Assembly: GCF_902809845.1 (NCBI RefSeq)
Contig: NZ_CADDWI010000013.1
Span: 62,001 to 126,000, forward strand
Direction of reading: 5' to 3'
DNA: 64,000 bases
Source: Chelativorans sp. Marseille-P2723
GTDB lineage: Bacteria > Pseudomonadota > Alphaproteobacteria > Rhizobiales > Rhizobiaceae
A model generated the notes under the pieces. That model ran no database searches. It was not told the origin of the DNA and worked only from the letters and a program-made list of their open reading frames with translations. This document shows, one piece after another, positions 1,614 through 35,144 of the stretch. Position 1 is the stretch's first letter, and each line of letters starts with the position of its first letter. The position numbers and the translations under genes were made by a program.

Positions 1614-1659
1614 GGCACCTCTCCTATTAGGGACGCAACAGCGCGCGCGCCCATCGTAC

Positions 1660-1673
1660 ACAACAAATGTTTG
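1660..1673. promoter_or_regulatory. PsrA/FadR-like operator, one mismatch
   Basis: ACAAC-aaat-GTTTG (reverse strand CAAAC-attt-GTTGT), 47 bp upstream of the oxidoreductase start at 1613. It matches the C(A/T)AAC-N4-GTT(A/T)G consensus found at five other intergenic positions, apart from one outer base. PsrA-type TetR repressors of beta-oxidation genes bind G/CAAAC-N(2-4)-GTTTG/C. Binding here is inferred. Confidence 0.45.
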
Positions 1674-1749
1674 GTTGCAAATGATGAGTCAGAGAGCCGG
1701 CTTGTGCCTCCCGCGCGATGCCGATGACACCATCGACCCTCAGGCGTAC

Positions 1750-2253
1750 TCAGCTTGTTTCACGGCGCCTGATCAGGATGGCCGCCCCCGTCCGCAGCAC
1801 CACGGTTCCATCTTCCTTCACAGCCTCAAGCTCCCAGCTAGCAATTCCCCTGTCCGGCTTGGATTTTGATTCACGCTTCTCCGTCCACGTCGCCATAAGC
1901 CGTATAGGCGTGTCGGGCACAGTGGGCGCCGGCAGTTCAATCCCGTGAAATTTAAGTGCAGCTATCACCTGGCATTCTTTCGCAGCTCGAGCGAAGATGC
2001 CGACGGCTACTGCCATGGTATGCGTTGCAGAGGCCGTTACCCTGCCCGCCGGCGTCCCCTTTGCAAATTCAGGATCGATGTGCGCGGGCTGAGGGTCAAA
2101 CTTCCGGGCGAATTCGATGATCTCCGCTTCGGAAAGTGTAAAACGTCCACATTCCTGCCGGCGGCCGACCTCGATATCCTCCAGATAGGCGCCCTTCATT
2201 TCAAAGACTTCGTATTCATGAGCCGGGGCGAGTGCGTTTGTGTTGGGCATCAT
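1750..2253 (-). CDS. MaoC-like acyl-CoA dehydratase/hydratase
   Basis: Single hot-dog-fold MaoC protein of 167 residues, expected to hydrate a 2-enoyl-CoA to a 3-hydroxyacyl-CoA in the cytoplasm. The hydratase motif is intact: FDPQPAHID places Asp53 and His58 correctly, followed by a conserved ASATHT segment. The ATG at 2253 has GGAGG 6 bp upstream; an internal Met19 is a less likely start because it lacks such a site. It lies 15 bp after the short SDR gene and runs toward the oxidoreductase, so the three probably form one operon. Substrate unknown. Confidence 0.85.
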   Translation of the reverse strand: MMPNTNALAPAHEYEVFEMKGAYLEDIEVGRRQECGRFTLSEAEIIEFARKFDPQPAHIDPEFAKGTPAGRVTASATHTMAVAVGIFARAAKECQVIAALKFHGIELPAPTVPDTPIRLMATWTEKRESKSKPDRGIASWELEAVKEDGTVVLRTGAAILIRRRETS

Positions 2254-2268
2254 CGGAGACCTCCTGTT

Positions 2269-2868
2269 TCAGTAAAGCGTGCCGGCATCGTTGCTCACCG
2301 GCTGAACGCGATTAGGCACGATGCGCAAAGGCTTCGCGAATTCTGTCGAAATGCTCTTCCATAAGGCGATGACGGCATGCTTCGTTGCCGCATAGATGCC
2401 GTATCGCAGCCCCGGCCACGCACGGAAGCCAGCTATCGAAGCAGTATTGACGATATGCCCACCCTCCCCGTGAATACGGATCAGCGGCAGGAAGGACTTA
2501 ATGCCGTGAATGATGCCGAACACGTTCACGCCGAAGGCCCAATGGCAATCATTCAAAGGAACCGCCTCGATATCCGGGCCATGCAATGCAACACCCGCAT
2601 TGTTAACGGCGATATGGATCTTGCCAAGTGCATTCTGCGCCACCGCCGCCGCTGCGGCAACGGAGGCCGGATCCGAGACATCCGCCGGCGCAAGCATCAC
2701 TTCTGCTCCGAGCGCCTCGATCTCCTTTCGGGCAGATTCGAGCGCTTCGGAATCGATATCGGCAAGGCATAGTTTAGCGCCTTCTAAAGCAAAGGCGCGA
2801 GCAATTCCCAAGCCAATGCCGGACGCTCCACCTGTCACTATGACGCCTTTGCCCCTGAATTCTCTCAA
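2269..2868 (-). CDS. Short-chain dehydrogenase/reductase, C-terminally shortened
   Basis: Classical SDR with TGGASGIG (residues 12-19), NNAG (89-92), Ser144, and Tyr159-x3-Lys163 in YAATK, so the NAD(P) site and catalytic residues are present. The protein is only 199 residues, where 245-280 is usual. It ends about 36 residues after the catalytic Lys with an unrelated-looking VSNDAGTLY tail, so the substrate-binding loop and last strand are missing. The stop lies 15 bp before the MaoC start, leaving no room for a frameshifted remainder; an internal or 3' deletion is more likely than a sequencing error. It may be inactive. A perfect palindromic operator candidate sits 38 bp upstream of its start. 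Confidence 0.75.
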   Translation of the reverse strand: MREFRGKGVIVTGGASGIGLGIARAFALEGAKLCLADIDSEALESARKEIEALGAEVMLAPADVSDPASVAAAAAVAQNALGKIHIAVNNAGVALHGPDIEAVPLNDCHWAFGVNVFGIIHGIKSFLPLIRIHGEGGHIVNTASIAGFRAWPGLRYGIYAATKHAVIALWKSISTEFAKPLRIVPNRVQPVSNDAGTLY

Positions 2869-2905
2869 CTTTCACTCCCTACAGCAATTCGAAAGCCGAG
2901 CTAAT

Positions 2906-2919
2906 CAAACCACTGTTTG
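2906..2919. promoter_or_regulatory. PsrA/FadR-like operator, perfect palindrome
   Basis: CAAAC-cact-GTTTG, a perfect inverted repeat 38 bp upstream of the SDR start at 2868. It is the best match in the window to the published PsrA consensus G/CAAAC-N(2-4)-GTTTG/C. The short distance to the start suits repression of the leftward operon. Confidence 0.6.
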
Positions 2920-3148
2920 TTTTGTAAGATGTCCTGTGACTACGATCAAGTGGTAATAATGGCCCTTGCCTCAAAGCGCGGTCGGAGAAGCCGCCTTCAA
3001 GATCAGACTTCCAACGCCGCCTGTTCGTTGGAGCGCTTCAAGCAGCACCGCTACAAGGGCTACGCGCCTACCTCGCAAACGGTGCATCCAGAGAGAACGG
3101 GAAAGATCCGGTTAATCCTCCGGCATTCCACAACACAGAGACCATTGA

Positions 3149-3162
3149 CAAACAATCGTTAG
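3149..3162. promoter_or_regulatory. PsrA/FadR-like operator
   Basis: CAAAC-aatc-GTTAG, with no mismatch to the local C(A/T)AAC-N4-GTT(A/T)G consensus. It is 174 bp upstream of the acyl-CoA ligase start at 3336 and shares the divergent control region with the site at 2906. Confidence 0.5.
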
Positions 3163-3335
3163 TTATTCAAAGTTCCCTTGCATGATATCTTCGCAGCAGG
3201 AGGAACCCAGAGCGAAGCTAGGGGGAAACCTCGTCGACACGACGGGGAAGCATGAACGACCAGCGTTTTTAAGAAGGCAGCAATCGGGATGCGCAGCACA
3301 TAAGCGCAATCGCCAGCAACTGGAGCAGTAGTTCC

Positions 3336-4898
3336 ATGAATGTGGGAGAGATCGTCCGCAGGCAAGCACGGTGGGCACCTGACAAGGTTGCCACCATCGA
3401 TGGTGCGGAACAGATAACTTACGGCCAGCTACACGAACGATCCGACCGTCTTCTGGGCGCCCTTAACGCACTCGGTTTGAAAAAAGGCGATCGGGTAGCA
3501 ACATTATCGGACAATTGCGGGCGTTACGTCGAGGTAGTAGCGGCGGCCGCAAAGGGCGGGCTCATCGTGGTCCCAATCAATCCGCGGCTCAATGCGTCCG
3601 AGGTTGCATTCATCTTGCGCAACTCCGGCCCGTCAGTCCTGATAGGGTCGAGCGTCTATCGCGGGATCATTGCGGAAGCGTCGAAATCCGCGCCAGAGTT
3701 GATCCGGGTCTTCTATTTTGACGCGGATCAGGAAGGCGACCGGTATGAACAGCTCATTTTCGCAAAGAACCCTTCGCCTGCGGAAGTGGAGGTCGAGCCG
3801 GACGACGGCTTGTTCATCTCTTATACAAGCGGCACTACGGGCGTCCACAAGGGCGCATTGATGACCCATCACAACCTTGTCATAAACGCCGCCAATGTCG
3901 CCCTCCACTGCGAGATGACGCCGGCGACGCGGGCGCTGGTCGTCATGCCGCAATCGACAGGGGGGTGCAATCACCACATTGTCCTTCCTACCCTCTTCGT
4001 TGGCGGCACGCTCGTAGTGCTGGATGCGCGCAATTTCGAACCCGGACGCTGCCTGGGTGCAATCCAGGAACATCGCATCACCCATGTTCAGCTCGTGCCG
4101 ACGATGATCTACCGTCTGCTTGACTCTCCGCAGTTCGACCAGTTCGACATCTCGTCGCTGCAGGTTCTTGGCTATGGCTCCGCGCCCATGGCGGTAGAGC
4201 GACTGCGCGAAGCGCTCGACCGCTTCGGGCCCATTTTCATCCAGATCTACGGGCAGACTGAAGCTGGTTCCGTGGCCGTTTGCATGTCCAAGCAGCACCA
4301 TATCGACGCCCTTGAAGCAGGGAGCCTCGAAATCCTCGGCTCCAGCGGTCGACCTATTAATACGGTAGACGTGCGCATCGTCGATGAGAACGGGAACGAT
4401 GTTCCGGTGGGCGAGACGGGCGAAGTTATCCTCCGCGGTGACACAATCATGCAGGGATACTGGAATGCGCCTGACGAGACGGCTGAGGCGCTGCGCAACG
4501 GCTGGTTGCACACGGGTGATCTTGCGCGGGCCGACGATGCTGGCTTCATCTATCACGTCGATAGGAAGAAAGATATCATTATAAGCGGCGGCGTAAACAT
4601 TTCGGCGCGCGAAATCGAGGAAATCATCTACCGTCATCCCGGCGTGCGTGAGTGTGCCGTCATCGCCGTGCCAGATCCGCATTGGGGCGAGTCCGTAAAG
4701 GCGGTTATCGCCGTGCGCGACAATCACCAGGTAAACGCTGAGGAGATCACCCAGCTCTGCCGTACGCATCTCGCCAGCTTCAAATGCCCGCGCTCCATCG
4801 ATTTTATAACCGAGTTCCCGAAGAGCGGCATGGGAAAGATTCTGAAGCGTGAATTGAAGAAGATGTACTGGCAAGATCAGGAAAGACTGGTGAGCTGA
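3336..4898 (+). CDS. Acyl-CoA synthetase (AMP-forming, ANL superfamily)
   Basis: Activates a carboxylic acid to its CoA thioester through an acyl-adenylate. The 520 residues carry the adenylate P-loop YTSGTTGVHKG (163-173), YGQTE, the hinge region HTGDLARADD with VDRKKD, and the C-terminal catalytic lysine Lys501 in KSGMGK. Length and motifs fit medium/long-chain or cyclic-acid ligases; the chain type cannot be read. The start MNVGEIVRRQ has only a weak GGAG upstream, but it is the only Met before the first conserved block. It leads the operon with the TRAP genes (55 bp to dctP), which suggests that the imported acid is its substrate (inference). Confidence 0.88.
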   Translation: MNVGEIVRRQARWAPDKVATIDGAEQITYGQLHERSDRLLGALNALGLKKGDRVATLSDNCGRYVEVVAAAAKGGLIVVPINPRLNASEVAFILRNSGPSVLIGSSVYRGIIAEASKSAPELIRVFYFDADQEGDRYEQLIFAKNPSPAEVEVEPDDGLFISYTSGTTGVHKGALMTHHNLVINAANVALHCEMTPATRALVVMPQSTGGCNHHIVLPTLFVGGTLVVLDARNFEPGRCLGAIQEHRITHVQLVPTMIYRLLDSPQFDQFDISSLQVLGYGSAPMAVERLREALDRFGPIFIQIYGQTEAGSVAVCMSKQHHIDALEAGSLEILGSSGRPINTVDVRIVDENGNDVPVGETGEVILRGDTIMQGYWNAPDETAEALRNGWLHTGDLARADDAGFIYHVDRKKDIIISGGVNISAREIEEIIYRHPGVRECAVIAVPDPHWGESVKAVIAVRDNHQVNAEEITQLCRTHLASFKCPRSIDFITEFPKSGMGKILKRELKKMYWQDQERLVS

Positions 4899-4953
4899 CG
4901 GATAGTGAGGAATCTCACCGCAACTCTTTTGCTCAAACAACAAGGGGGACATC

Positions 4954-6003
4954 ATGAGAAACAGGAACATCATCAGCAAAATCCAGGAGCGAATGGAGCG
5001 GCGCGATGTGCTGAAGCTCTTTGGGGCGGCTGGCGCTGCAACGCTTGTTAACAGCGGGATGAGCAAGCCGACCAAAGCCCAGGGCGGGAAGGTGACTATT
5101 CGCGTCGCTACTGTTCAGCAGAACACGCAAGAGCCTTATTTGGTGCTGCGCCGCTGGGGCGATGAGGTAGAAGCCCGTTCAGGGGGAGACATTACCGTGC
5201 TCGTGTCCGGTACCGAAGCCGTTACGGGCGGCGAGCGGGACGCGCTTGAGGGTGTACGGGCACTTGGCGTTTATGACGCCTGTTCCATTACCTCCTCACT
5301 ACTTTCAACGGTCGAACCCCGCTACGGCATCTCCGACCTTCCCTTCATCTTCAAGGATCGCGAGACCGCGTTCAAATACCATGACGGCGAGATCGGAGCA
5401 AAGCTCGACGCGATGCTTCTGCAGACAAGCGGGTTGCGCCCCCTGATGCATACTTACAGCCTTATGCGTCACACTCATCTTAGGTCCACATCCATCCGCT
5501 CGCTCGCCGATTTCGAGGGCTTGAAGATCCGGTCGGTCCAGGCCGACATCCCGCTGCGGATGTTCGCGGCACTTGGTGCAAATGCAGTGCCGATGGCGGC
5601 TACCGAAGTCTATACTTCCATCCAGACCGGTGCGATAGACGGCTGGGAGTGCCCGCTCGATGCTGCACTCGCTTGGAAGACCTACGAAGTAGCCAAGCAC
5701 ACTTCGCTCACCGGCCACCAATATGCCGATGTCGTCCTGTGCATCAGCGAAGCCTTCTTCCAGAAACTTTCAGACGAGCACCAGGCTATTCTCGTTGACA
5801 CCGCCAATGACCTCCTGGCCGATCACCGAGAGCGTATGGGCGCGCTCGACAAGGCGGCCATCGCTGAACTGGAAGGTCATGGCGCGACTGTCACGGAAAT
5901 CGACGACAAGGCGCCCTTCCAAGAGGCGGTAGCGTCGATCTATGAAGATCTCGGCAGCCGTCTCGGCATCCTCGACATCATCGAGGAAGTACGTGCGCTA
6001 TAA
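4954..6003 (+). CDS. TRAP transporter substrate-binding protein (DctP family), system 1
   Basis: Periplasmic receptor that delivers an organic acid to the DctQM membrane proteins encoded next to it. It has 349 residues. The N-terminus has ERRDVLKLFGAAGAA, a twin-arginine-like signal with a short hydrophobic stretch, so export may be by Tat. The mature domain has the DctP signature region around LADFEGLKIRSVQADIPLRMFAALGANAVPM, with the arginine that usually pairs with the substrate carboxylate. The ATG at 4954 follows AAGGGGG. The order dctP-dctQ-dctM is standard. The ligand is unknown; the upstream CoA ligase suggests a carboxylate. Confidence 0.9.
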   Translation: MRNRNIISKIQERMERRDVLKLFGAAGAATLVNSGMSKPTKAQGGKVTIRVATVQQNTQEPYLVLRRWGDEVEARSGGDITVLVSGTEAVTGGERDALEGVRALGVYDACSITSSLLSTVEPRYGISDLPFIFKDRETAFKYHDGEIGAKLDAMLLQTSGLRPLMHTYSLMRHTHLRSTSIRSLADFEGLKIRSVQADIPLRMFAALGANAVPMAATEVYTSIQTGAIDGWECPLDAALAWKTYEVAKHTSLTGHQYADVVLCISEAFFQKLSDEHQAILVDTANDLLADHRERMGALDKAAIAELEGHGATVTEIDDKAPFQEAVASIYEDLGSRLGILDIIEEVRAL

Positions 6004-6055
6004 CTTTATGGCGCACGAGCACCCTCATGGTGCACTCCCGCATCACAGGTGACAC

Positions 6056-6571
6056 ATGATAGGCTCAGTGTGGAGAAGTTACGACTTCGTCCTCAAGGTG
6101 ATCGTAGTGCTGCTTATGGCTAGCCTGGCTACGGTTGGCGTGCTTCAGATAGTGTTCCGCTATTTTGTCGGAAGCTCCCTGTTCTGGACGGAAGAACTCA
6201 GCCGTTACCTTCTGCTCTGGCTGGTGATGTTTGCAGCAGCGATCGAGGTCGAGCGCGGTACCCACATCGCGATCCGGGTATTGGCGGACTTGTTGCCGAA
6301 GGTGACGCAGTACTGGCTTGAGCGTATAAATCTGTGCCTGGTCCTCGTCTTTTCTCTCATCATTGCCATTTACGGTATGCGCCTCGCGCTCAATACCATG
6401 TCCCAACAAACGGCCACCATGCCATTCCAGGTAGGGTTCTTCTACCTTGCCGTACCAATTGGCGGCGCCTTGATGGCCATCAACTCGATGCGGTCACTCT
6501 ACAGGATCGGTAGATCGCGAGCTGGAGCTGCCAGCTTTGAAACTAAGGGCGATCGGCAATGCTCGTCTTGA
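6056..6571 (+). CDS. TRAP transporter small membrane subunit (DctQ), system 1
   Basis: 171-residue inner-membrane protein with four hydrophobic segments. It contains the conserved FWTEELSRYLLLWLVMFAAAIEVERGTHI stretch of the DctQ family, in which a Trp-Thr-Glu-Glu-x2-Arg motif ends the second segment. It partners DctM and DctP of the same operon. Its last 13 bases overlap the start of dctM, a sign of translational coupling. The ATG at 6056 has a modest AGGTGA upstream. Confidence 0.9.
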   Translation: MIGSVWRSYDFVLKVIVVLLMASLATVGVLQIVFRYFVGSSLFWTEELSRYLLLWLVMFAAAIEVERGTHIAIRVLADLLPKVTQYWLERINLCLVLVFSLIIAIYGMRLALNTMSQQTATMPFQVGFFYLAVPIGGALMAINSMRSLYRIGRSRAGAASFETKGDRQCSS

Positions 6572-7836
6572 TGCTCATCATCTGTCTGGTGCTGTTCGCC
6601 GCCGGCACACCTGTAGCATTTGCCATTGGCCTAGCAGGTGCTGTCACGGTCGTGATGTCGGACCTCCCACTGACACTGGTTCCGCACCGCATGGTTTTCC
6701 AGCTTGATTCCTATTCTCTGCTGGCCGCCCCCTACTTCATCCTGTTCGGCTATCTGATGGAGAAGGGTGGCATTTCAGCGCGACTGTTCGCCTTCGCCCA
6801 TGCATTGACACGGCATTGGCGCGGTGGACTAGGGCAGGCGACAATGGGCGCATCTATCGGCATGGCAGGACTAAGCGGTTCCGGCATCGCTGATGTCTCT
6901 GCAATCGGCGCGGTCGCCGCACCCGGCATGAAGGACAAGGGATATAATCCTAGCTTCACCGCCGCAGTGCTCTCGTCGGGCGGATTTCTAGCTCCCATTA
7001 TTCCGCCCAGCATCCTGATGATCGTTTATGGCTCGATCACTACCGTTTCAATTGCGGCACTCTTCATCGCCGGCATCATTCCCGGCATACTTCTGGCTGT
7101 CCTATTCATGATTGTGATCTGGTGGCGATCTAAGCGGCTCGGTTATGGAGGTGAGCAGCGGGCCAGCGCGAGGGAGATCTGGGAGACCTTCCGCTCAGCA
7201 TTCTGGGCGCTTATTGCACCGATCCTGCTTGTCCGTGGGATCGTGGTGGGTGTATTCACCGCCACTGAAGCTGGTGCAGTGGCGGCAGCCTACGCCTTCT
7301 TTGTGGGCACCTTCGTCTACCGCGAACTCAAACCACGGCATTACTTCGAAATTTTCCTCAAGGCCGGCCTGATGAGTGGCGGCATCCTCATCATCATTGC
7401 CACGGCTGCCTTACTGGGATGGCTACTGCAGCGCTTCAACTTACCGCAGATGACTGTGGATTTTTTGGCGACCGTCACCACTAGTCCATCTCTCCTGCTC
7501 CTGCTCATCATGGGCATGCTTCTGGTAATAGGGTGCTTTATCGAGGTGCTGGCAGCAGCGATTATCCTCATTCCCGTCCTTGCTCCCGTTGGTGCGGAGT
7601 TCGGCTTTAATCCGCTACATTTCGCTATGGTTGTCCTCCTTTCGCTTCAGATTGGCACCGTAACGCCACCCATGGGGGTCTACGTATTCCTCGCCAACCG
7701 CATTGCCGGAGCCAATCTCGCGGCCACGTTCCGCGAGCTTGTTCCCTTCTTGTTTGTCATGCTGGTTGTAACGCTACTAGTGGCATATGTCCCAATGCTT
7801 ACGATGCTTCTGCCAGGATGGCTTTATGGCGGTTGA
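6559..7836 (+). CDS. TRAP transporter large permease (DctM), system 1
   Basis: 425-residue polytopic permease that takes up substrate with a sodium gradient. Family signatures are visible: the GLSGSGIADVSAIGAV region near residue 110, FLAPIIPPSILMIVYG, TATEAGAVAAAYA and the C-terminal QIGTVTPPMGVYVF. Length is normal for DctM. The start at 6559 has AAGGGCG 9 bp upstream. With the preceding two genes it makes a complete tripartite transporter. Confidence 0.92.
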   Translation: MLVLMLIICLVLFAAGTPVAFAIGLAGAVTVVMSDLPLTLVPHRMVFQLDSYSLLAAPYFILFGYLMEKGGISARLFAFAHALTRHWRGGLGQATMGASIGMAGLSGSGIADVSAIGAVAAPGMKDKGYNPSFTAAVLSSGGFLAPIIPPSILMIVYGSITTVSIAALFIAGIIPGILLAVLFMIVIWWRSKRLGYGGEQRASAREIWETFRSAFWALIAPILLVRGIVVGVFTATEAGAVAAAYAFFVGTFVYRELKPRHYFEIFLKAGLMSGGILIIIATAALLGWLLQRFNLPQMTVDFLATVTTSPSLLLLLIMGMLLVIGCFIEVLAAAIILIPVLAPVGAEFGFNPLHFAMVVLLSLQIGTVTPPMGVYVFLANRIAGANLAATFRELVPFLFVMLVVTLLVAYVPMLTMLLPGWLYGG

Positions 7837-8072
7837 GGTCAGCGTGCGGTTCGGCACTACGGCAGGGCCGGAAAGGAGCCTCAACATGGGGGAGCTCGGA
7901 TACTTAGCCAGTACACCGAGGAATATGCCGCATTTACAGCGGCTGGACGGCACCCTTCCGCAGCACGACCGATTACCAGCCGCCGTTCATTCTTAAAGGC
8001 AGATAGGAGACTATATCGTCCGCGTAAGATCAGGCAGTGCCAGCACTCCATGAGAGCAGGAAGGGGTTCATT

Positions 8073-8516
8073 ATGACAGAGCAAGCACCAACGCTCTGGC
8101 TTGACGATTTCAAGCCAGGACAGACATTCTCGGGCGGTCCCAGAACTATCAATGAACGGGACCTGCTGTTTTGCGCGCTTTGGTGTGGGGATGGGCAGCC
8201 CCATTCCAATGAAGAGTATTCCCGCAATACTCCCTTCGGCCGGCGGATTGTGCATGGTGACGGTACTCTGGCCATGGGCACCGGGCTGATCCTGGGACAG
8301 GGCATGTTTGCAGGCAGCCTTATCGGCTATGACTCAATGGAAATACGTTATCCGAATCCAGTTTTCATTGGGGACGCTATCCGTTCGCAGCTCACGATCG
8401 AGACGGTGGAAGCAACGGGGATCGGAGAAGGTGTGATTGAAGCCGCTCTCGAAGTAAAAACTGACAAACCGGTCGTTCAGAGCCGCGTGCGCTACCTTGT
8501 GAAGAGGAAACCCTGA
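8073..8516 (+). CDS. MaoC-like hydratase, catalytic member of a pair
   Basis: 147-residue hot-dog-fold protein. The hydratase residues are present (GDGQPHSNEEY, Asp40 and His44; then FGRRIVHGDGTLAMGTG). The start at 8073 was chosen because AGGAAGGGG lies just upstream; an in-frame ATG 36 bp earlier has no such site. The stop overlaps the start of the next gene (TGATG), so the two proteins are probably made in equal amounts. In actinobacterial steroid degradation, ChsH1 and ChsH2 form a hydratase from one complete and one degenerate MaoC chain, and this pair looks alike (inference). Confidence 0.85.
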   Translation: MTEQAPTLWLDDFKPGQTFSGGPRTINERDLLFCALWCGDGQPHSNEEYSRNTPFGRRIVHGDGTLAMGTGLILGQGMFAGSLIGYDSMEIRYPNPVFIGDAIRSQLTIETVEATGIGEGVIEAALEVKTDKPVVQSRVRYLVKRKP

Positions 8517-8980
8517 TGCCGCAGTTTCAGCCCACTGGCATGTATCTGGAAGACTATATTGAAGGGGAAGGCATGCTTTCCCCAGGGCGCACCATTACCT
8601 CAGCAGACATCGAAATGTTTGCGGAATGGATCGGCGATCCCTATTCCGCCAAACAATATGCGGATAATGGGAAGCGCCTCGTTTGCGTGCCACTTATCGT
8701 GAATCTTGCTGATGCTTTGTTTCAGCGGCTTGGATGCGTTGAAGGCACCGGCTACTGCAATCTCGGGTGGAAGTGGAAGTTCCAGCATCCTGTATACGAG
8801 TGGGACACGCTCTGGGTAAGGACACGGTGGAACAGCACACGGCCGAGCAAATCGTTGCCCGGCGTTGGGATCGTCAACATGACACTTACGGTGCTCAACC
8901 AGCACGATGAGGAAGTGGCAGTAGCTGATTGGGCGGTCATGATGCTCAGCCGCTCGTACTCACTCGACCCTGCAGCGTAA
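8516..8980 (+). CDS. MaoC-like protein with degenerate active site, partner subunit
   Basis: 154 residues that align by eye with MaoC proteins (GMYLEDYIEGEGMLSPGRTIT, then FAEWIGDPYSAKQYA). The active-site His of D-x4-H is Ser here, and the usual R-x-A-H-G segment reads RLVCVPLIVNLAD. It is therefore unlikely to be a hydratase alone and more likely serves as the structural half of a heteromer with the preceding protein. It starts on the stop codon of that gene. The rest of the hot-dog fold appears complete. Confidence 0.75.
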   Translation: MPQFQPTGMYLEDYIEGEGMLSPGRTITSADIEMFAEWIGDPYSAKQYADNGKRLVCVPLIVNLADALFQRLGCVEGTGYCNLGWKWKFQHPVYEWDTLWVRTRWNSTRPSKSLPGVGIVNMTLTVLNQHDEEVAVADWAVMMLSRSYSLDPAA

Positions 8981-9007
8981 CCAGCTGTCAAAGTTGAGTA
9001 CTTTTTA

Positions 9008-9045
9008 CCCGCGGGCTGCTGATGGATGGAAAGGGCAGCCGCGGG
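9008..9045. terminator. Hairpin between convergent genes
   Basis: CCCGCGGGCTGC (9008-9019) pairs with GCAGCCGCGGG (9035-9045), leaving one bulged G. It lies between the stop of the MaoC pair (8980) and the stop of the leftward acyl-CoA dehydrogenase (9062). No T-run follows on either strand, so it may act through structure or with Rho. Confidence 0.4.
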
Positions 9046-9061
9046 ACCCGGATTAGGACCC

Positions 9062-10225: not shown

Positions 10226-10273
10226 AGAACCTTCCGCAATATCGAACTGAAGGGAGCTGCGCTCGTCTAGAGG

Positions 10274-12451: not shown

Positions 12452-12454
12452 TGC

Positions 12455-14222: not shown

Positions 14223-15287
14223 TTATTCCGATAGTCGATAAAGCACCTGGCCGTCCCGCAAGACCTCTTCCAGTTGCCCTTCTGCCACCAGGAAATTTGT
14301 GTGTGCAATAGCCTCGCCTATAGCGATACCAAGGCTTTCACCGTTGAAATCACGACCGAAAATAGTGGGGATGAGGTCGCGAGCTGTTGCCGCTCTGTTC
14401 TGGCAAGCCATAAGCGTCTCCGCGCATCGAAGCTGATGATGGTTTACCAATTGATCTATTCGCGCATGAAGCCCGAAAAAAGGCAATTCGTGCCCGGGCA
14501 GCACCATGACATCATCGGACACGTTCGTCCGCAACTCTGTAATAGAGCGGAGATAATCATGCAGCGGATTTGCCCTGGGCGCATCCGGCATGACACTGAT
14601 GTTAGGGGATATCCTCGCCAGCACCTGGTCGGCGCAAATCAAGAGACGATCGGCAGCATCGTACAGCATCACAAGCTCTGGCGAGTGACCTGAGCCGGTG
14701 AGAACGTGAAACTGGCGGCCGCCGATCCTGATGGAATCCCCTTCCGCGACATAGGTTACTTCCTCGGGCAGATCGCTGATGAAGGCACCATAGTCGTGTT
14801 GCCCACCCTTTTGAGCGATATTGTCTTCCATCGCAATGCCATGCCGGGTAAAATGTCCATTTAGCAGCGTCAAGTAGTCCTCGATGGGCTCTGCCGACAT
14901 GCGACGAGCGGCTACGTACTCGCGCCCGCTCATGACCACGGGTGCGCCGGTGGTTCGGGAAAGCCAACCGGTAGCTCCTAGGTGGTCCGGATGAAAGTGG
15001 GACGCGATAATCCGCGTTATGGGACGTCCACCAAGACCGTCGCGAAGAAGCGCAGTCCAGAGTTCCCGATTTTCCTGCCCGTCGGTTGCAGCATCGAAGA
15101 CAGCCCAGCCGCCATCATCCTCAAGCAGATACACGTTAACGTGATTTAGCTGGTAGGGCAGCGGAAAGCGGGCCCACAGCACTCCCGGAGCTGCCTCTAT
15201 GAGGCAGCCGGGCTTTGGCGCACAGTCAATGGGAAACCTTAGCGGTACTTCGTGAGAGAGCTTCGGTGGAGTTTTTCGCGGCGTCAT
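14223..15287 (-). CDS. MBL-fold metallo-hydrolase
   Basis: 354-residue metallo-beta-lactamase fold protein with the zinc motif HFHPDH (His97, His99, Asp101, His102), a later GSGHSPE histidine, an Asp in LICADQVL and a His in VLPGHELPF, so the dinuclear site appears complete. The C-terminal part (about 260-354) may be the helical substrate-lid domain common in such hydrolases. The likely reaction is hydrolysis of a thioester or lactone. It starts 22 bp after the dctM stop. Function beyond hydrolase is not readable. Confidence 0.8.
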   Translation of the reverse strand: MTPRKTPPKLSHEVPLRFPIDCAPKPGCLIEAAPGVLWARFPLPYQLNHVNVYLLEDDGGWAVFDAATDGQENRELWTALLRDGLGGRPITRIIASHFHPDHLGATGWLSRTTGAPVVMSGREYVAARRMSAEPIEDYLTLLNGHFTRHGIAMEDNIAQKGGQHDYGAFISDLPEEVTYVAEGDSIRIGGRQFHVLTGSGHSPELVMLYDAADRLLICADQVLARISPNISVMPDAPRANPLHDYLRSITELRTNVSDDVMVLPGHELPFFGLHARIDQLVNHHQLRCAETLMACQNRAATARDLIPTIFGRDFNGESLGIAIGEAIAHTNFLVAEGQLEEVLRDGQVLYRLSE

Positions 15288-15309
15288 TCATGAAAATCCT
15301 AGCCGAAGC

Positions 15310-16584
15310 CTATCCGAGGAATACGGTCGAAAGCCACGGCACGTATGAAATGATCAGCATGTCTATAATGAGCACCAGGAGGAACCAGCTCAAAGGCCGC
15401 ATGAGCGCCTCCATTTTTACGTTGAAGGTCGTGCACGCGATAAAGAGATTGATCCCGACGGGCGGCGTAACCATACCCAGAGCCAAATTGGCGATGACGA
15501 TCACGCCGAAATGCACCGGATCTATCTCGAAAGCCGCGGCCAGCGGCGCCAGAATGGGCGTGACGATGATGATGGCCGGCACACCCTCCAGGAAGGTTCC
15601 AACGATCAGCAGCAGAATGTTGACGACCAGGAGGAAGACCAACGGGTCATCCGTCAACCCTACCACAAAGCCGGAGATCGTGACGGGTATGCGATAGAGG
15701 ATCAGCACATAAGCGAGCACGGAAGCAAAGGCGATAATTATCATCACCACGGCTGTCGTATAGGCTGCCTCGTAAAAGAGACGCGGCAATGCCGACAGTT
15801 CAAGCTCCCGATAGACAAACAGACCAAGGAAAAGCGTGTAAACCACCGCCACGACCGCAGCCTCGGTGGGAGTAAAATAGCCGCCATAGATTCCGCCAAG
15901 AATGATGATGGGGCTGAGTAGTGCCAGCCATGCCTCGCGCACAGCCGTTGCCACGTTACGCGCCCAGATACCGAAGCTGTAAGAGGTGCGCTCGCCATAA
16001 CCCTTGACCACCGAAAACGCCAAGACCAACAGAATGAGCGAGCAGCCAATGAGAAGCCCCGGCAGGATGCCGGCCAGGAACAGATCGCTGATCGACACAC
16101 CTGTCATTACTCCATAGATGATCATCGGAACCGAAGGCGGGATGATCACCCCGAGCTCGGCCGAGCTTGCAACCACAGACGCCGTGAAAGGCGGTGGATA
16201 CTTCTGCTTCTTCATCTCGGGACCGATGACGCCCCCGATGGCGGCGGCAGTTGCAGCGGAGGAGCCGGACATGGTCGAGAACATCATCGCGGTCAGGACG
16301 GTCGCGCTTCCAAGGCCGCCCCGCATCCAACCCACAAGCGCAACCGCCAGATCTATCAGCCGCCTGGCAATGCCGCTGGCTTGCATCAGCTTGCCGGCCA
16401 ACACGAAATAAATTACAGCCAGCAATGCAAAGGAATCGAGCACCTCAAAGGCATTCTGCGGGATGGTGACGAGTGGCATACCCCGCTGCCAAAGTGCAAT
16501 TACTGGTGCTGCACCCATGGCGATCGCGACCGGCACGCCGATCGCGAGCAAAACCACCATCAGTAAGACGACAAGTGCGATCAA
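15310..16584 (-). CDS. TRAP transporter large permease (DctM), system 2
   Basis: 424-residue permease with the DctM signatures MMFSTMSGSSAATAAAIGGVIGPEM, VIIPPSVPMIIYG, FTPTEAAVVAVVY and LGMVTPPVGINLF. The start is TTG at 16584, preceded by GGGGGCTGGG, which serves as an adequate ribosome site; no ATG fits better. It lies 21 bp after dctQ. No substrate-binding protein gene adjoins dctQM; the dctP at 20643-21623 is the likely partner (see findings). Confidence 0.9.
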   Translation of the reverse strand: MIALVVLLMVVLLAIGVPVAIAMGAAPVIALWQRGMPLVTIPQNAFEVLDSFALLAVIYFVLAGKLMQASGIARRLIDLAVALVGWMRGGLGSATVLTAMMFSTMSGSSAATAAAIGGVIGPEMKKQKYPPPFTASVVASSAELGVIIPPSVPMIIYGVMTGVSISDLFLAGILPGLLIGCSLILLVLAFSVVKGYGERTSYSFGIWARNVATAVREAWLALLSPIIILGGIYGGYFTPTEAAVVAVVYTLFLGLFVYRELELSALPRLFYEAAYTTAVVMIIIAFASVLAYVLILYRIPVTISGFVVGLTDDPLVFLLVVNILLLIVGTFLEGVPAIIIVTPILAPLAAAFEIDPVHFGVIVIANLALGMVTPPVGINLFIACTTFNVKMEALMRPLSWFLLVLIIDMLIISYVPWLSTVFLG

Positions 16585-16605
16585 TGTCCCAGCCCCCGCC
16601 CAAAC

Positions 16606-17160
16606 TCACTCAAGCGTCGTATCTGCAAGCAACACGGGCCTGTGCCCATGAAGAGTTTCGTCCACGATGAGGCAAAGTGTGTTGATGATCATGAGTGCAG
16701 CGCTAACGGGAAGTGATGCGTAAACCCACGACATGGGAATGACCATCACCGGGCTGCGTTCGATCAGATTGCCCATCGTGTAACGCCAGCCCGTCCAGAC
16801 GAGCAGCGCGAAAAAAGCGAGGCTGACGAGCAAGGCCAAAATCCGTACCGGGTATGCAATGCGGGAAGGCAATGTTTCGACGAGAAATTCGAGCGCTATG
16901 AGTTGCCCTTTCCGGGCTGCTACCGCGCTCCCAATAAAGACGATCCAGATCATCAGATATCGGGCTAATTCCTCGCTCCACGGCACCGAAAGGAGAATAC
17001 CGAACTTTGTCAGCAGGAAGCGCACGGTGACTTGCAGCATGGTGCAAAACACCATCACGGCAAGTGCGCCGGCCATGAAATAGCCTATGGCCCAATTCAC
17101 CTTGTCTACGGCCGAGAGGAGCGGTGGTATGACTCCGTTCGAATTGCCAGCTTCGGACAT
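16606..17160 (-). CDS. TRAP transporter small membrane subunit (DctQ), system 2
   Basis: 184-residue four-segment membrane protein with the family stretch VPWSEELARYLMIWIVFIGSAVAARKGQLIALEFLVETLP. It starts at 17160 with GAGGA directly upstream and is first of the three-gene unit dctQ-dctM-MBL. An operator candidate lies 84 bp upstream, the same distance as before the separate dctP at 21623. Confidence 0.9.
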   Translation of the reverse strand: MSEAGNSNGVIPPLLSAVDKVNWAIGYFMAGALAVMVFCTMLQVTVRFLLTKFGILLSVPWSEELARYLMIWIVFIGSAVAARKGQLIALEFLVETLPSRIAYPVRILALLVSLAFFALLVWTGWRYTMGNLIERSPVMVIPMSWVYASLPVSAALMIINTLCLIVDETLHGHRPVLLADTTLE

Positions 17161-17243
17161 TCCTCATCTGCCTCTTTGTGTCTACAACACGGTGATCAAG
17201 CAAACCCTCGCAGTGACCATAGGCGGTCAACGGGAGGATTGGG

Positions 17244-17257
17244 CTAACAAGTGCTTG
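17244..17257. promoter_or_regulatory. PsrA/FadR-like operator, one mismatch
   Basis: CTAAC-aagt-GCTTG (reverse strand CAAGC-actt-GTTAG), 84 bp upstream of dctQ of system 2. Three bases are shared beyond the arms: AACAAG-tg-CTTGTT is itself a perfect inverted repeat. Confidence 0.45.
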
Positions 17258-17367
17258 TTTGGTACCCATATCAGCATTGATGCATTCTGTCACCCACTGA
17301 CAGCCCTCTTGCCTGGTCCCTGCATTGTTTGAACAGACGATTATCTAACTTCTTCGGGATATGCTGC

Positions 17368-17378
17368 TGCATATGGAT
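17368..17378. promoter_or_regulatory. CATATG-centred shared motif, copy 1
   Basis: TGCATATGGAT, the same 11 bases as at 35131 and, on the other strand, at 41059. It is the outlying copy of a motif otherwise found at 35-42 kb. Regulator unknown. Confidence 0.25.
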
Positions 17379-17964
17379 GTACGACCGATTGGGAAGAGTT
17401 TTCAGAATGAATTCGGCCGCACTTCTGCAGAAGGTGCTTTTACAGTATACGGCAGAATATTACATCGCAGTGCAAACCCTTTAGTATCTACTGTTTTGCT
17501 GCGGATTGGTCTGACTTTGACGCAGATGATGTCTACCTTTTATCCGGAAATACACTAAAACTGCGTATCGAAGCGATGCGGAACATCTTCGCACAGAAGC
17601 GCCGCGTAAATGGTTCCCCGGTTTTCGAACGCATATACGCACAGCCGGCGCTTTGTGCGTCACAAGGTGTTCTTTCCAGCCATCATCCCGGATGACAAGC
17701 GGTTCACGCAGTTCCATGTATTTCAATCCGGAAGCCGTACGGAAGGGCGATACCGCCGTTCGGCAGCTATTGGCCCGCGACGACTCGCAGTTTGCAAGAC
17801 ACCAAGATCGACGCCTCTTCAGCGAGCCTACCCCATCAGCTACCACACGCGGCTGAGCAACGATTTCACCGTGACGCGAAAACGCTCGGCAAACGGCACT
17901 TGCGACCTATCGGCCCGATATCTAGGCCGCTTGGCCAACCGTCATCTTGTGCGTACTTCATACC

Positions 17965-18939
17965 TCACTTTGTTAGATGTTTTGCAGCACGGTAGCGATC
18001 AATGTAATCGCGAACCCAGTCGGCCAGCGGATGAGGAATAAAGCCGAGGTCGCTCTTGGCTCGTTCAATGTCCATAAGGCAGTAGTTGCCCATGCGAAGG
18101 CCCATATAGTCGAGTCCATCGCCTACCTTGATGTCAGCCTCGGGAATGACAGCTTTGATGGCATTGGCCAGATCACGCAGCGTAACCAGCTCCCCCGATC
18201 CAAGATGATAGGTGTGATAGGCAAGGACCGGTTGCAGTGCAGCCTGCACAAGGCCAGCGGCTATATCCAGATTGTAGATGATGTCATCCCGCTCATCGCC
18301 ACCTTGCGCCACTTCGACAGGAACGCCGTCGACAGCGCCCTCAATCATCGCGCTTGTTACGCTCGATGAGCCATGCTGCTTGCCCTTGCCTGGCCCGCAA
18401 GTGGTACCAAATCGAGCAACCACGGCATCGAGCTCGTAATGCTCGCGGTACAATGTAACAGCATCCTCCGCTACTTTCTTGGTCATGCCATAGGTGGCAT
18501 TCGGCCTCCGCAGATGATCTTCCTTGATTGCCGAATAGTTCGGATGGCCCCATTCACCATTCAGGGTGCCAAAGGCTGACTTGCTGCTGGCAAATACGAA
18601 TCGGCGGAAACCCGGGCTTTGCCTTGCAGCCTCTAGCAGCGTGAGCGTGCCGGTGAAGTTTACGCCGAAGCCGGCGAGCGGGTCGCTTTCACACTCCAGA
18701 AGGATCGCAGCAAGATGAATTATCCGGGTCACGCTGTTATCAGCCATGATGGAACGTATGGCTTCCACGTCGCGAATGTCCGCTGCGGCGGACGTCACCA
18801 GCGGATCATCGGAGTACCAGCCGCTTCGGCTAACGACAACTGACGGGACCTTCCGCCGCGACAGCTCCTCAAGAACAAGCTGACCTATCGCACCGTTGCC
18901 ACCTGTTACGAGAACTTTTTCGTCAGTTTGGCTGGCCAT
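17965..18939 (-). CDS. NAD-dependent epimerase/dehydratase family protein (extended SDR)
   Basis: 324-residue extended SDR with the NAD motif TGGNGAIG (residues 12-19) and the catalytic Tyr150-x3-Lys154 in YGMTK. It oxidises or reduces a hydroxyl or keto group, or epimerises a substrate. Many catabolic clusters use such proteins as 3-beta-hydroxysteroid-type or aldehyde/alcohol dehydrogenases, and which applies here is not visible. The ATG at 18939 was chosen for GGTGG 8 bp upstream; a GTG at 18957 has no site. It follows the ligase gene, 27 bp after its stop. Confidence 0.8.
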   Translation of the reverse strand: MASQTDEKVLVTGGNGAIGQLVLEELSRRKVPSVVVSRSGWYSDDPLVTSAAADIRDVEAIRSIMADNSVTRIIHLAAILLECESDPLAGFGVNFTGTLTLLEAARQSPGFRRFVFASSKSAFGTLNGEWGHPNYSAIKEDHLRRPNATYGMTKKVAEDAVTLYREHYELDAVVARFGTTCGPGKGKQHGSSSVTSAMIEGAVDGVPVEVAQGGDERDDIIYNLDIAAGLVQAALQPVLAYHTYHLGSGELVTLRDLANAIKAVIPEADIKVGDGLDYMGLRMGNYCLMDIERAKSDLGFIPHPLADWVRDYIDRYRAAKHLTK

Positions 18940-18966
18940 CTGATCCACCCATGTCACGCCAGTTAT

Positions 18967-20550
18967 TCAGGCGGCCTTGTCCGGATAGTTGGCGAAAATC
19001 TCCGCTGCAAGCTGCCTGAGGGCGGAGCGATCCACCTTCGCATTCGCCGTCACCGGAAGATTTTTCTCAAATACGATTTCCTGCGGCAGCTTGTATCGTG
19101 CCAGACGCGGCTCAAGATGCTCGAAGACTCTCTCCCTGGAGAGAGACGCATCGGGTTTCGGAGAGACGAAGGCAATAATCGCTTCTCCAGATACCCTGTC
19201 TGAAATCCCCACGACGCAGGCTGCGGAGATTCCAGGATGCTCCAGCAACGCTGTTTCGACTTCGGCTGGAGCAATATTGGCACCGCTTCGTATGATCATG
19301 TCGCTGGCACGGCCGACGACGAATATGTACCCATCGCTATCACGTCTGATGAGATCACCGGTGCGGGTCCAGCCTTCGGCATTCGTTTTTTCAGCCGTAA
19401 GCGCCGGGTTGCCGTAGTAACAGACCATTGCACCGGGGCCGCGCACCCAGGCTTCTCCCTCAGCGCCCTCCGGAACATCCGCCCCTTCCGGATCGCATAT
19501 CCTGATTTCCACACCAGGAGCCGCCTTTCCGGCCGTTCCTCTGGGCGCATTGACATCATGCGCTCGCATGGCCACCAACGGGTGGTTTTCGGAGAATGCC
19601 CAGGCTTGTATCAATCGGAGGCCCAGCCGCGCCTCGGCAGGCTTGACCAAACTTTCCGGGCATGGTTCGCCGCCATTCATGCAGAAGCGCAACGAAGAAA
19701 GATCTGCTTTGCGGCGCTGGAGCACATCCAGAATCTTGGTGTACATCGACATCGTTCCAAAGAACATCGTCGCGCGGTGCTCCTCGATGGCATCCAGAAC
19801 GCGCTCAGGATGAAAGCGCCTGAGCAAAGCCACCGTGCCGCCAGTCGACAGCATAGATGCGGTCGTCATGATCAAACCCGATACCCAGGACATCGGAGGG
19901 GAGACGCACGCGATATCGTCTTCCCGATAGTCCCAAACGTCTGGATAGGTGGTGATCTGGTATCCAACGCTGCCATGGGTATGCAGCACAGCTTTTGGAT
20001 CCGCAGTACTTCCTGATGTGTAAACAATCAGGCAAGGCGTATCCTCTGTACAATGAAAAGCTTCCCTGCTCTCCTCCGCGCTCCCAAGCAAGTCATCCAG
20101 CCGGCCCAGAACACGCCCTTCCGCGGCGACAGGTTCATCATCGCCAATCACAACAATTTTGGACGGAGCATCCGGCGAGTCATCCATATTGCTGCGAAAA
20201 ACATTGAGGCGGGAGACATGAACGAAAGCAACATCCGCCTTCGAGTTCGCCGCAATATGATGCAACTCCTTGCGGCGGAAGGCCTCGTTTACAGGCGCCG
20301 CGATCGCTCCAACCTGGCAGCAGGCGAGGAAGACCGCCTCGTAATCAGGAGCATTTGGAGAAAAAATCAGAACACAGTCGCCCGCTTGGACACCAAGCTC
20401 TGTCAGCAACCATGAAACCTGACAAACCTGACGTTGGAACTGAGCATAAGTGATGGTCTGCCCCTCATACAGAAAGGCCGGATGACCTGACCGACGATCA
20501 GCAACCCTATCGATCTTGAGGAAGATATTGGAGTTATTCATGTCCGTCAT
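18967..20550 (-). CDS. Acyl-CoA synthetase (ANL superfamily), second copy
   Basis: About 527 residues. The P-loop reads YTSGSTADPKAVLHTH, followed by the A8 region TGDLIRRDSDGYIFVVGRASDMIIRSGANI and the C-terminal lysine in LPVTANAKVDR. It resembles cyclohexanecarboxylate/long-chain ligases in layout. An upstream ATG at 20628 lies inside a strong hairpin (20605-20629) and gives an Arg-rich extension, so I prefer the ATG at 20550 (MTDMNNSN), or the one three codons later. It follows dctP, which again pairs a transport receptor with a CoA ligase. Confidence 0.85.
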   Translation of the reverse strand: MTDMNNSNIFLKIDRVADRRSGHPAFLYEGQTITYAQFQRQVCQVSWLLTELGVQAGDCVLIFSPNAPDYEAVFLACCQVGAIAAPVNEAFRRKELHHIAANSKADVAFVHVSRLNVFRSNMDDSPDAPSKIVVIGDDEPVAAEGRVLGRLDDLLGSAEESREAFHCTEDTPCLIVYTSGSTADPKAVLHTHGSVGYQITTYPDVWDYREDDIACVSPPMSWVSGLIMTTASMLSTGGTVALLRRFHPERVLDAIEEHRATMFFGTMSMYTKILDVLQRRKADLSSLRFCMNGGEPCPESLVKPAEARLGLRLIQAWAFSENHPLVAMRAHDVNAPRGTAGKAAPGVEIRICDPEGADVPEGAEGEAWVRGPGAMVCYYGNPALTAEKTNAEGWTRTGDLIRRDSDGYIFVVGRASDMIIRSGANIAPAEVETALLEHPGISAACVVGISDRVSGEAIIAFVSPKPDASLSRERVFEHLEPRLARYKLPQEIVFEKNLPVTANAKVDRSALRQLAAEIFANYPDKAA

Positions 20551-20604
20551 GAGTGCTGAAGCAAAAAGGATACGGTGCTTTCGCACTGTGCGTGCAAATT
20601 GGCG

Positions 20605-20629
20605 AATGCGGCGCAAGAAGCGCCGCATT
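20605..20629 (-). terminator. Intrinsic-type hairpin after dctP (system 2)
   Basis: AATGCGGCGC (20605-20614) and GCGCCGCATT (20620-20629) form a perfect 10-bp stem with a 5-base loop, 13 bp after the dctP stop. Only a weak T-rich stretch follows on the minus strand. It may reduce read-through so that the binding protein exceeds the downstream ligase, a common pattern. Confidence 0.55.
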
Positions 20630-20642
20630 AAACGAGAGATGA

Positions 20643-21623
20643 TCAGTCGTTCTTCCGAAGCTTCTCTGCCTCCGCAAGAAAGTTTTGTATCTCGGGCTTG
20701 GCTGCCTCCTCCCCTAGGATCTCATCCCAGGAAGCACGCGCTTTCTCCATGAACGGCGCAAGATCGGGGTCCGCGAAGACAACGCCCCGCTCCTTCATCT
20801 TTTCTATGGCTGAAGTGTCATCGCTGCGGACATATTCAGCGCCGAATTTCATAGCCGCCTCAGCCGCCTCCCTGATTTTTTCCTGGACATCGCTTGGAAG
20901 AGACTCGAACTTTCCAGCCGACATCAGCAGGAGCGAGGGGATGTAGTTGGCACGCGTGGTGGAATAGTGGGTGACAATATCGCCAAAACCGTCCGAGAGG
21001 ATCTGGCCGGGCGCAAGCTCAGTGGCGTCGACCACACCATTCTGTAAAGCGAGGAACAATTCGCCATAAGCCATAGCAGTCGGCTGAGCACCCAGCGCTT
21101 CATAAGCCTTGACGAAGCCAGGCGACTGAACCACCCGGATCTTCAAACCGGCCATATCGTCTACGCTGCCGATCGACTTGGTGCCTGCAACACTGCGCTC
21201 GTAGACCGGGCCCCAGTCGAAGCCGACTATGTCATACCTTTTCAGAATATCGAGGAACTGACGCCCGAGTGGACCATGCAACACTGCGCTGGCATGATCC
21301 ATGTCCTCGTAGATATAGGGCAAGGAGAGAACTCGGAACTCCGGCACGGAATTCTCAATCGTAGGCTGGCTGACGATAGTGAAATCGACAGCGCCATTGC
21401 GGATGCTCTGCACCATCTTCAACTCGCCACCCAAACTGGCATCGGGATAGATAATGAGCTCGACCCCGGACTTGGCCAGTTCGTCCTGCAGCTTCAGGGC
21501 GATCTGATGAAAGCTCCCGCTTTCCGGATGAGCATGACCGAGCGTGAAGCTGTATTCCTGCGCCACTGCCAAACCCGTCGCCATCATCATGGCAGCGCCG
21601 AGAGCAGCCAACTTTCTGATCAT
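20643..21623 (-). CDS. TRAP transporter substrate-binding protein (DctP family), system 2
   Basis: 326-residue periplasmic protein with a Sec signal (AALGAAMMMATGLAVAQ, cleavage after about residue 21). The DctP region DDMAGLKIRVVQSPGFVKAYEALGAQPTAMAYGELFLALQNGVVDATE includes the ligand-carboxylate Arg. The ATG at 21623 follows GGGAGGA. It stands apart from any dctQM pair: the gene order here is dctP-ligase-epimerase. The only dctQM without a receptor is at 15310-17160 with a matching operator, so they probably form one transporter (inference). Confidence 0.9.
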   Translation of the reverse strand: MIRKLAALGAAMMMATGLAVAQEYSFTLGHAHPESGSFHQIALKLQDELAKSGVELIIYPDASLGGELKMVQSIRNGAVDFTIVSQPTIENSVPEFRVLSLPYIYEDMDHASAVLHGPLGRQFLDILKRYDIVGFDWGPVYERSVAGTKSIGSVDDMAGLKIRVVQSPGFVKAYEALGAQPTAMAYGELFLALQNGVVDATELAPGQILSDGFGDIVTHYSTTRANYIPSLLLMSAGKFESLPSDVQEKIREAAEAAMKFGAEYVRSDDTSAIEKMKERGVVFADPDLAPFMEKARASWDEILGEEAAKPEIQNFLAEAEKLRKND

Positions 21624-21937
21624 ACGGAATCCTCCCTGAGCACTAACTTCGTCTGCAATCTGTGGCGAAAGCTGGAATTATGCTTCCGAGCTCAGAGCCA
21701 ACAAGCTAACGATTGTTAGGTATCGATCCGTTCCCGCGGTTTGTCAACAAGATGCCGACATGTTTCTCGCGGTTTTAAGGGCCGCACATAAAAATTTCTC
21801 TGGCAATACCCGAGCATCCCGATCTAGGAGCGCCAGGCTGAACGGCTTCGTTGAAATTGGCTGCGACACAAACGGTCGAGCTACACCGAACTTGCCGGCG
21901 AGGAGCACTGCCATTTGCACCCGGCACAGGGTAGCTG
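21624..21937. other. Intergenic region between the system 2 dctP and the SDR operon
   Basis: 314 bp, no gene supported. It holds the promoter side of dctP, with the operator at 21706-21719. It also holds the 3' end of the leftward six-gene operon above it; no strong terminator hairpin was seen. Confidence 0.5.
21706..21719. promoter_or_regulatory. PsrA/FadR-like operator, perfect palindrome
   Basis: CTAAC-gatt-GTTAG with perfect inverted arms, 83 bp upstream of the dctP start. It is related to the site at 3149, with which it shares AACAATCGTTAG on the opposite strand. Confidence 0.6.
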
Positions 21938-33923: not shown

Positions 33924-33956
33924 TGGATAGCCATCGCCGGTGAAATCAAAAGGCGG

Positions 33957-33991
33957 AAGTTCCGCGCAAAGTGCCTTCTTGCGCGGAACTT
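33957..33991 (-). terminator. Strong hairpin after the ABC receptor gene
   Basis: AAGTTCCGCGCAA (33957-33969) and TTGCGCGGAACTT (33979-33991) form a perfect 13-bp stem with a 9-base loop, 10 bp after the receptor stop. CCTTTTGATTT follows on the minus strand. Probably a partial terminator or 3'-stabilising stem that raises receptor over permease level. Confidence 0.65.
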
Positions 33992-34001
33992 CGATTGGGG
34001 T

Positions 34002-35024: not shown

Positions 35025-35130
35025 ACCTCCCCTCCTTATCTTTGGTGGCGGCCGGCCAGCGCCGGCGGAGGCGAGCATGAAAGAAAGCTTTGAAAAATGA
35101 AAGCGGCCCGCAACATACCGGCTCCTATAA

Positions 35131-35144
35131 TGCATATGGATTAT
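35131..35144. promoter_or_regulatory. CATATG-centred shared motif, copy 2
   Basis: TGCATATGGATTAT, identical over 14 bases to the reverse strand of 41046-41059. It lies in the 260-bp divergent region, 107 bp from the receptor start (35024) and 141 bp from the start at 35285. Confidence 0.4.

Follow-up and report, generated by a model that had tools for sequence, protein, structure and literature searches.

A clustered palindrome and a proposed TetR_C_24 regulator, TetR-A, at an acyl-CoA catabolism and uptake locus of Chelativorans sp. Marseille-P2723

Repressors of the TetR family that act on catabolic genes have been described in several bacteria (the accounts given here reflect parts of the cited papers). 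KstR2 of mycobacteria represses catabolic genes, and its 14-bp palindrome occurs in three intergenic regions near kstR2, its own included (PMC3068626). BkaR, also from mycobacteria, is an autorepressor of adjoining acyl-CoA metabolism genes, and its dimer binds a palindrome (PMC3920632). MbdR of Azoarcus sp. CIB acts on several promoters of one catabolic cluster, its own included, with an acyl-CoA, 3-methylbenzoyl-CoA, as inducer (PMC4424350). PsrA of Pseudomonas, a TetR protein that represses beta-oxidation, has a site in its own promoter and the published consensus C/GAAAC-N2-4-GTTTG/C (PMC13104628). FadP, called unique to betaproteobacteria and having about 18 target genes per genome, is a TetR-family regulator of fatty acid degradation that was, like the regulator proposed here, predicted by comparative genomics (PMC5343134). 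Here we analyzed a 64,000-nucleotide stretch of Chelativorans sp. Marseille-P2723 (the window; G000:C13:62001-126000, within a 3.77-Mb genome of 13 contigs), in which an initial annotation had reported six copies of the palindrome CWAAC-N4-GTTWG. We consider it very likely that these palindromes serve as operators for a single TetR-family repressor, TetR-A, which would regulate its own gene and is encoded left of the window. Positions without a contig prefix are window positions.

By analogy, the circuit may work like those of KstR2, BkaR, MbdR, and PsrA; TetR-A is proposed as a new TetR_C_24 regulator in a type of circuit that is already well known. KstR2 is, like the proposed TetR-A, a TetR repressor of catabolic genes and is among its nearest solved TetRs, but its operator is AnCAAGnnCTTGnT (PMC3068626) rather than CWAAC-N4-GTTWG, and the cluster described here contains ATP-binding cassette (ABC) and tripartite ATP-independent periplasmic (TRAP) uptake genes. 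The BkaR core, GTTA(N)T(N4)A(N)TAAC, has the inverse half-site order (PMC3920632), MbdR differs in its operator (ATAC-N10-GTAT) and its anaerobic aromatic pathway (PMC4424350), and the operator of EdcR is different as well (PMC8700777). Unlike PsrA (PMC13104628), TetR-A has its strong sites at one catabolic cluster and one distal gene. A limited search of the open-licence literature did not find CWAAC-N4-GTTWG paired with a TetR-A-type regulator. We computed the positions of the sites, their clustering, their match to the operator upstream of TetR-A relatives, and their contrast with three other TetRs.

Distribution of the palindrome

A pattern search of the window returned exact copies at 2906 (CAAACCACTGTTTG), 3149 (CAAACAATCGTTAG), and 21706 (CTAACGATTGTTAG), as the initial annotation had reported, and the copies at 13844 (CAAACACTTGTAAG) and 17244 (CTAACAAGTGCTTG) have one mismatch each, as it had also stated. 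Its sixth copy, at 1660 (ACAACAAATGTTTG), has two mismatches instead of one and is absent from the one-mismatch list, yet scores 13.2 on the matrix described below. All six sites lie outside genes and before catabolic genes, as claimed, according to gene calls based on open reading frames (ORFs); the 1660 site is intergenic only if the oxidoreductase gene starts at ATG 1613, the longest ORF starting at 1661. Two further one-mismatch matches, at 22688 (within a short-chain dehydrogenase/reductase [SDR] gene) and 49989 (over ORFs), are both outside the top 30 of the independent matrix scan.

The window contains 7 matches at one mismatch or fewer against 3.15 expected; 4 of 100 shuffles reach 7, and the count alone is therefore weak. 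Genome-wide motif counts are also uninformative alone, since the control pattern is usually commoner, in this genome (7 exact sites versus 14 for the reversed pattern) as in its relatives. Four of the seven exact genome sites lie inside C13:57315-83719 (26.4 kb), the fourth being 4.7 kb left of the window at C13:57315, and when seven sites were placed at random an equally tight cluster arose in 8 of 200,000 trials (P ~4e-5). The palindrome is real and clustered, and its clustering, more than its number in the window, is the strong point. Elsewhere, exact copies occur at C8:477191 (in overlapping ORFs without a Pfam match), at C8:962007 (between MipA-family and zinc-peptidase genes), and at C13:1076546, before an SDR gene.

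TetR-A and the operator of its relatives

A Pfam scan left of the window identified tetR-A (protein P0001, 233 aa; C13:48372-49073, L008:6372-7073; + strand), which lies 13.6 kb from the window and is divergent from an SDR gene. Its product matches the TetR_N helix-turn-helix (61.4 bits; Pfam cut-off, 24) and TetR_C_24 (PF17932; 63.8 bits; cut-off, 26.4), and all 16 members of alignment A1 match both domains. Compared with solved TetRs, the best hit was 3dcf (72.8 bits), and KstR2 (4w97) reached 50.9 bits over residues 36-208.

Relatives of TetR-A at E 1e-20 were found in 19 of 199 genomes of the same taxonomic family, its own included. The motif, at one mismatch or fewer, is upstream of tetR in 15 of the 18 family relatives and, as a control, upstream of 0 of 15 family relatives of the TetR at C13:1090862. 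A set from named genomes (80 loci kept of at least 554 confirmed, sharing at least 3 genomes with the family set) carried it upstream in 34 of 80 loci, the reversed pattern in 2 of 80. To avoid circularity, we then ranked every 5-base dyad with a spacer of 0-8 in 89 upstream regions of the relatives (95 minus near-duplicates), the Chelativorans genome being excluded. CTAAC-N4 ranked first (18 regions versus 0.3 expected) and CAAAC-N4 second (23 versus 0.9). The surroundings were also informative: 57 of the 80 named TetR-A loci carry a cluster-like ligase, acyl-CoA dehydrogenase, FadB, or thiolase, versus 1 of 20 background pieces taken from the Chelativorans genome.

We built a symmetric matrix from 41 sites in these 89 regions, the own genome again excluded. 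All six window sites are among the nine best matches in C13:42001-126000 (84 kb), and a seventh of the nine is C13:57315. At a score of 13 or more there are 7 matches in C13:48000-84000 (36 kb, a region chosen after the earlier reader had flagged it), compared with a single one in 400 kb of background taken from two contigs. The genome holds 17 distinct CWAACNNNNGTTW sites, five of which score above 20; these five are all before catabolic genes and all on C13 (57315, 64906, 65149, 83706, and 1076546), and the other 12, the tetR-A site included, score 14.0 or less.

The number of sites varied among the 18 TetR-A relatives. Among the matches listed, seven genomes (G129, G030, G130, G191, G176, G046, and G008) carry three or four exact copies no farther than about 20 kb from tetR (the fourth site of G176 is at 21 kb); six of the seven have closely similar TetRs and are therefore not independent. 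Also among the matches listed, G014 and G036 have one exact site beside tetR, G156, G171, G097, G163, and G085 have exact sites, all of them away from tetR, and G113 has no exact site; the same-genus genomes G090 and G167, both without TetR-A, have one exact site each.

About 1 Mb away, a strong candidate operator, CAAACAAATGTTTG (C13:1076546, L011:6546-6559), lies 80 bp before an SDR gene. Among solved structures this SDR is closest to 3-hydroxyacyl-CoA dehydrogenases, including type-2 enzymes (4xgn, 300 bits), and it has an orthologue in 73 of 121 genomes, its own included. We examined the best 29 orthologues: the 27 from genomes without a TetR-A match have no site scoring 13 or more, and of the two from genomes with TetR-A, G085 has a site at 13.2 and G030 has none.

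Several observations weigh against TetR-A as the regulator of these sites. Among the 18 family relatives, G198 and G085 lack the motif near tetR, G008 has it downstream only, and the G113 site is 375 bp ahead of the aligned part of a gene whose start codon is uncertain; 46 of the 80 named relatives lack it at one mismatch or fewer. The matrix sites were picked with the window's consensus, and the dyad search is the test free of that. In this genome the putative site before tetR-A (CTAACGGTAGTTAA, one mismatch; C13:48292-48305, between tetR-A and the divergent SDR gene) has a matrix score of just 8.6 to 9.5. Scores of 8 or more occur at 11 positions of the 400-kb background, and the sites upstream of the TetRs at C7:323531 (TAAACGATCGTTCC, 17.5) and C13:1090862 (CAACCTTTGGTTTG, 10.1) outscore the tetR-A site; support for the tetR-A site would come mainly from the relatives. 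A score of 13 is also exceeded in the 84 kb at C13:43094 (13.4, coding) and at 54555-54568 (13.7), the latter an intergenic match outside the cluster; neither is claimed as an operator. In the loci retrieved from the relatives, homologues are scattered without synteny to the cluster, and the target sites are therefore not footprintable across species. As for the distal gene, a relative of the C13:1090862 TetR is present in G085 too, so that this evidence is suggestive only. Finally, a sigma-70 scan of 1601-21500, which takes in five of the six window sites, placed no promoter at the sites (3 promoter-like matches versus 10.2 in shuffles).

Alternative regulators and the proposed circuit

Cross-talk, in which several related TetRs bind the sites and the cluster is a shared regulon, is the likeliest alternative, though in our view distinctly unlikely. 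Two paralogues have operators with an AAC..GTT core, and the 17244 site also fits a shifted KstR2-like dyad. Against this, matrix scores sharply separate TetR-A-type from C7:323531-type operators.

It is less likely still that the C7:323531 TetR (L015, C7:323531-324124) binds the cluster sites by itself. This TetR_C_24 protein is common in the taxonomic family, with a relative in 77 of 151 of its genomes, the own genome included, and its upstream site scores higher on the TetR-A matrix than that of tetR-A. However, its conserved operator, about 40 bp upstream of the start, reads attaatTRAACGNNCGTTYAattaat across 29 relatives, ending in T/A instead of C/G. On a matrix of such sites the cluster operators score -19.5 to 5.7, and the protein's own site, left out of the matrix, scores 29.4. 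The same-genus G090 has a C7:323531-type TetR but one exact CWAAC site among the matches listed.

The TetR at 39303, which the initial annotation had named as a candidate, is very probably not the regulator, and TetR-A is the better candidate. The 39303 protein lies within the window, has both TetR_N and TetR_C_24, and has a weak motif-like site upstream (matrix 8.3). In its group (14 loci, own included), 13 upstream regions carry a different dyad: the recurrent dyads were ATCGA-N8 (10 regions), GAGCG-N2 (13), and CGAGC-N4 (12), not CWAAC-N4. The relatives in other genomes keep a ATCGAGCG-type dyad upstream, with the operator core CGAGCG-N2-CGCTCG, and a partial copy, ACGAGCGCTCGCTT, stands before the gene here at 39086-39103, between the 39303 TetR and a divergent SDR gene. 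Even with 3 mismatches allowed, the window holds no copy of the 18-base form of this dyad, and its core at two mismatches has 10 window matches versus 9.7 by chance; the argument from the 39086-39103 copy is therefore its position, not its score.

The idea that a short palindrome merely clustered by chance in intergenic DNA would fit the marginal window count and the genome-wide count below that of the control, but in view of the random-placement trials and the matrix enrichment we regard it as highly improbable. The TetR at C13:1090862, which lies 14 kb from the distal site and has a one-mismatch copy of the motif upstream, can practically be dismissed, as the motif is missing upstream of all 15 family relatives and no dyad stands out there. 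The genome has 12 TetR_N matches in total; the eight besides tetR-A and these three rivals have no upstream site above 6.3 on the TetR-A matrix, in scanned stretches that may be wrong for L013 (a locus cut by a contig end) and perhaps L021.

The initial annotation had likened the palindrome to that of PsrA/FadR regulators. The form does resemble the published PsrA consensus (PMC13104628): the sites at 2906 and C13:1076546 fit it in full, and those at 3149, 21706, and C13:57315 carry TAAC or GTTAG in one or both halves. Membership is not supported, TetR-A scoring far below the cut-offs of the PsrA (Vibrio) model NF053516 (33.3 bits, residues 36-107 only; cut-off, 300), the FadR (Bacillus type, TetR) model NF053878 (44.7 bits; cut-off, 200), and the KstR model NF033703 (34.5 bits; cut-off, 280). 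No protein of the genome exceeds the NF053516 cut-off. The KstR2 motif AnCAAGnnCTTGnT, allowing one mismatch, fits 1 of the 8 cluster sites; its 3 other window matches lie away from cluster sites, and there is none in L008.

The broader idea, that a TetR-family protein controls a local set of acyl-CoA and transport operons, is supported, with TetR-A as the favored regulator. We infer that TetR-A physically binds the sites, represses the genes behind them, and is induced by acyl-CoA. In the proposed mechanism, a TetR-A dimer would bind CWAAC-N4-GTTWG at eight sites in C13:48292-83719 and at the one distal site. Its targets would be the ABC and TRAP uptake genes, the acyl-CoA degradation genes, tetR-A itself, and the distal predicted type-2 3-hydroxyacyl-CoA dehydrogenase gene, all of which would be repressed when substrate is absent. 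An imported carboxylic acid would be activated to its CoA thioester, and this thioester or a later intermediate would bind TetR-A and release it from DNA. Such an acyl-CoA response is plausible.

The loose motif can thereby be tested as a circuit that has one named regulator, nine candidate sites, and three disfavored rivals, and the uptake and degradation genes are grouped as one unit whose substrate can be sought by growth or induction tests. Additionally, the operators of three TetR_C_24 paralogues of one genome could be told apart by footprinting, which helps regulon prediction in relatives. Judging from record titles, many of them of metagenome assemblies, the operator stands before TetRs of this kind in Alpha-, Beta-, and Gammaproteobacteria, Desulfobacterales, Acidimicrobiaceae, Nitrospira, and Chloroflexi-type bacteria. 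Whether a deep TetR_C_24 subgroup keeps CWAAC-N4-GTTWG as its operator while the target pathways change is, in our judgement, evenly balanced. If it does, the operator would be a portable tag for finding uncharacterized acyl-CoA catabolic clusters, and its resemblance to the operator of PsrA would reflect convergence between different TetR subgroups.

Genes of the cluster and neighboring features

Operon limits were inferred from strand and spacing, and genes were assigned by Pfam unless stated otherwise. The leftmost exact candidate operator of the cluster, CTAACAATCGTTTG (C13:57315-57328; matrix 24.0), precedes genes for an ABC binding protein, a CoA ligase, and a dipeptide-type transporter, as well as a divergent thiamine pyrophosphate (TPP) enzyme gene. 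Within the window, the operator-like site at 1660-1673 is before an indolepyruvate ferredoxin oxidoreductase-family gene (- strand), the 5' part of which occupies 1-1613; the gene continues left of the window and was assigned from an NCBIfam match of its left part. The candidate operator at 2906-2919 (matrix 20.2) precedes genes on the - strand for an SDR (2269-2868) and a MaoC-like hydratase (1750-2253), and that at 3149-3162 (25.4) precedes + strand genes for a CoA ligase, TRAP DctP, DctQ, and DctM proteins, and a MaoC-like hydratase (3336-8516).

The candidate operator at 13844-13857 (matrix 17.7) stands before thiolase, FadB/FadJ-like protein, and acyl-CoA dehydrogenase genes (- strand, 9062-13660; Pfam and NCBIfam) and has a second register 4 bp away that scores 11.1. 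More generally, a second dyad register at offset 4 had a core score of 0 or more in 37% of 78 placements, and the other offsets, up to 14, did so in at most 1%; this register, partly built into the pattern, would fit two overlapping dimers. A short CAAA repeat at 13836-13853 runs into the candidate operator at 13844, producing two dyad registers that overlap.

Farther right, the candidate operator at 17244-17257 (matrix 13.5), which overlaps an exact fit to the published KstR2 motif at 17246-17259, precedes genes for TRAP DctQ and DctM and a metallo-beta-lactamase-fold hydrolase (- strand, 14223-17160). The candidate at 21706-21719 has the highest score in the 84 kb (25.5) and precedes genes for TRAP DctP, a CoA ligase, and an NAD epimerase-like protein (- strand, 17965-21623).

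We searched solved structures with two TRAP binding proteins, a ligase, and the TPP enzyme, and the matches did not identify the substrate; fatty or aryl carboxylic acids are both possible. Among solved chains, the ligase at 3336 comes nearest to a fatty-acyl-CoA synthase and a feruloyl-CoA synthetase. For the thiolase, the best solved match is 3svk (acetyl-CoA acetyltransferase, 529 bits), followed by Mycobacterium tuberculosis FadA (512 bits).

Just left of the proposed regulon, at L008:1041-3704 (C13:43041-45704), a TPP enzyme gene lies beside one for a phosphate acetyl/butyryltransferase, which we take to be possibly a sulfoacetaldehyde degradation pair. At 32109-35315, the window encodes an ABC permease and a binding protein; the permease is related to 2-aminoethylphosphonate transporters and the binding protein matches weakly, with scores well below the cut-offs.

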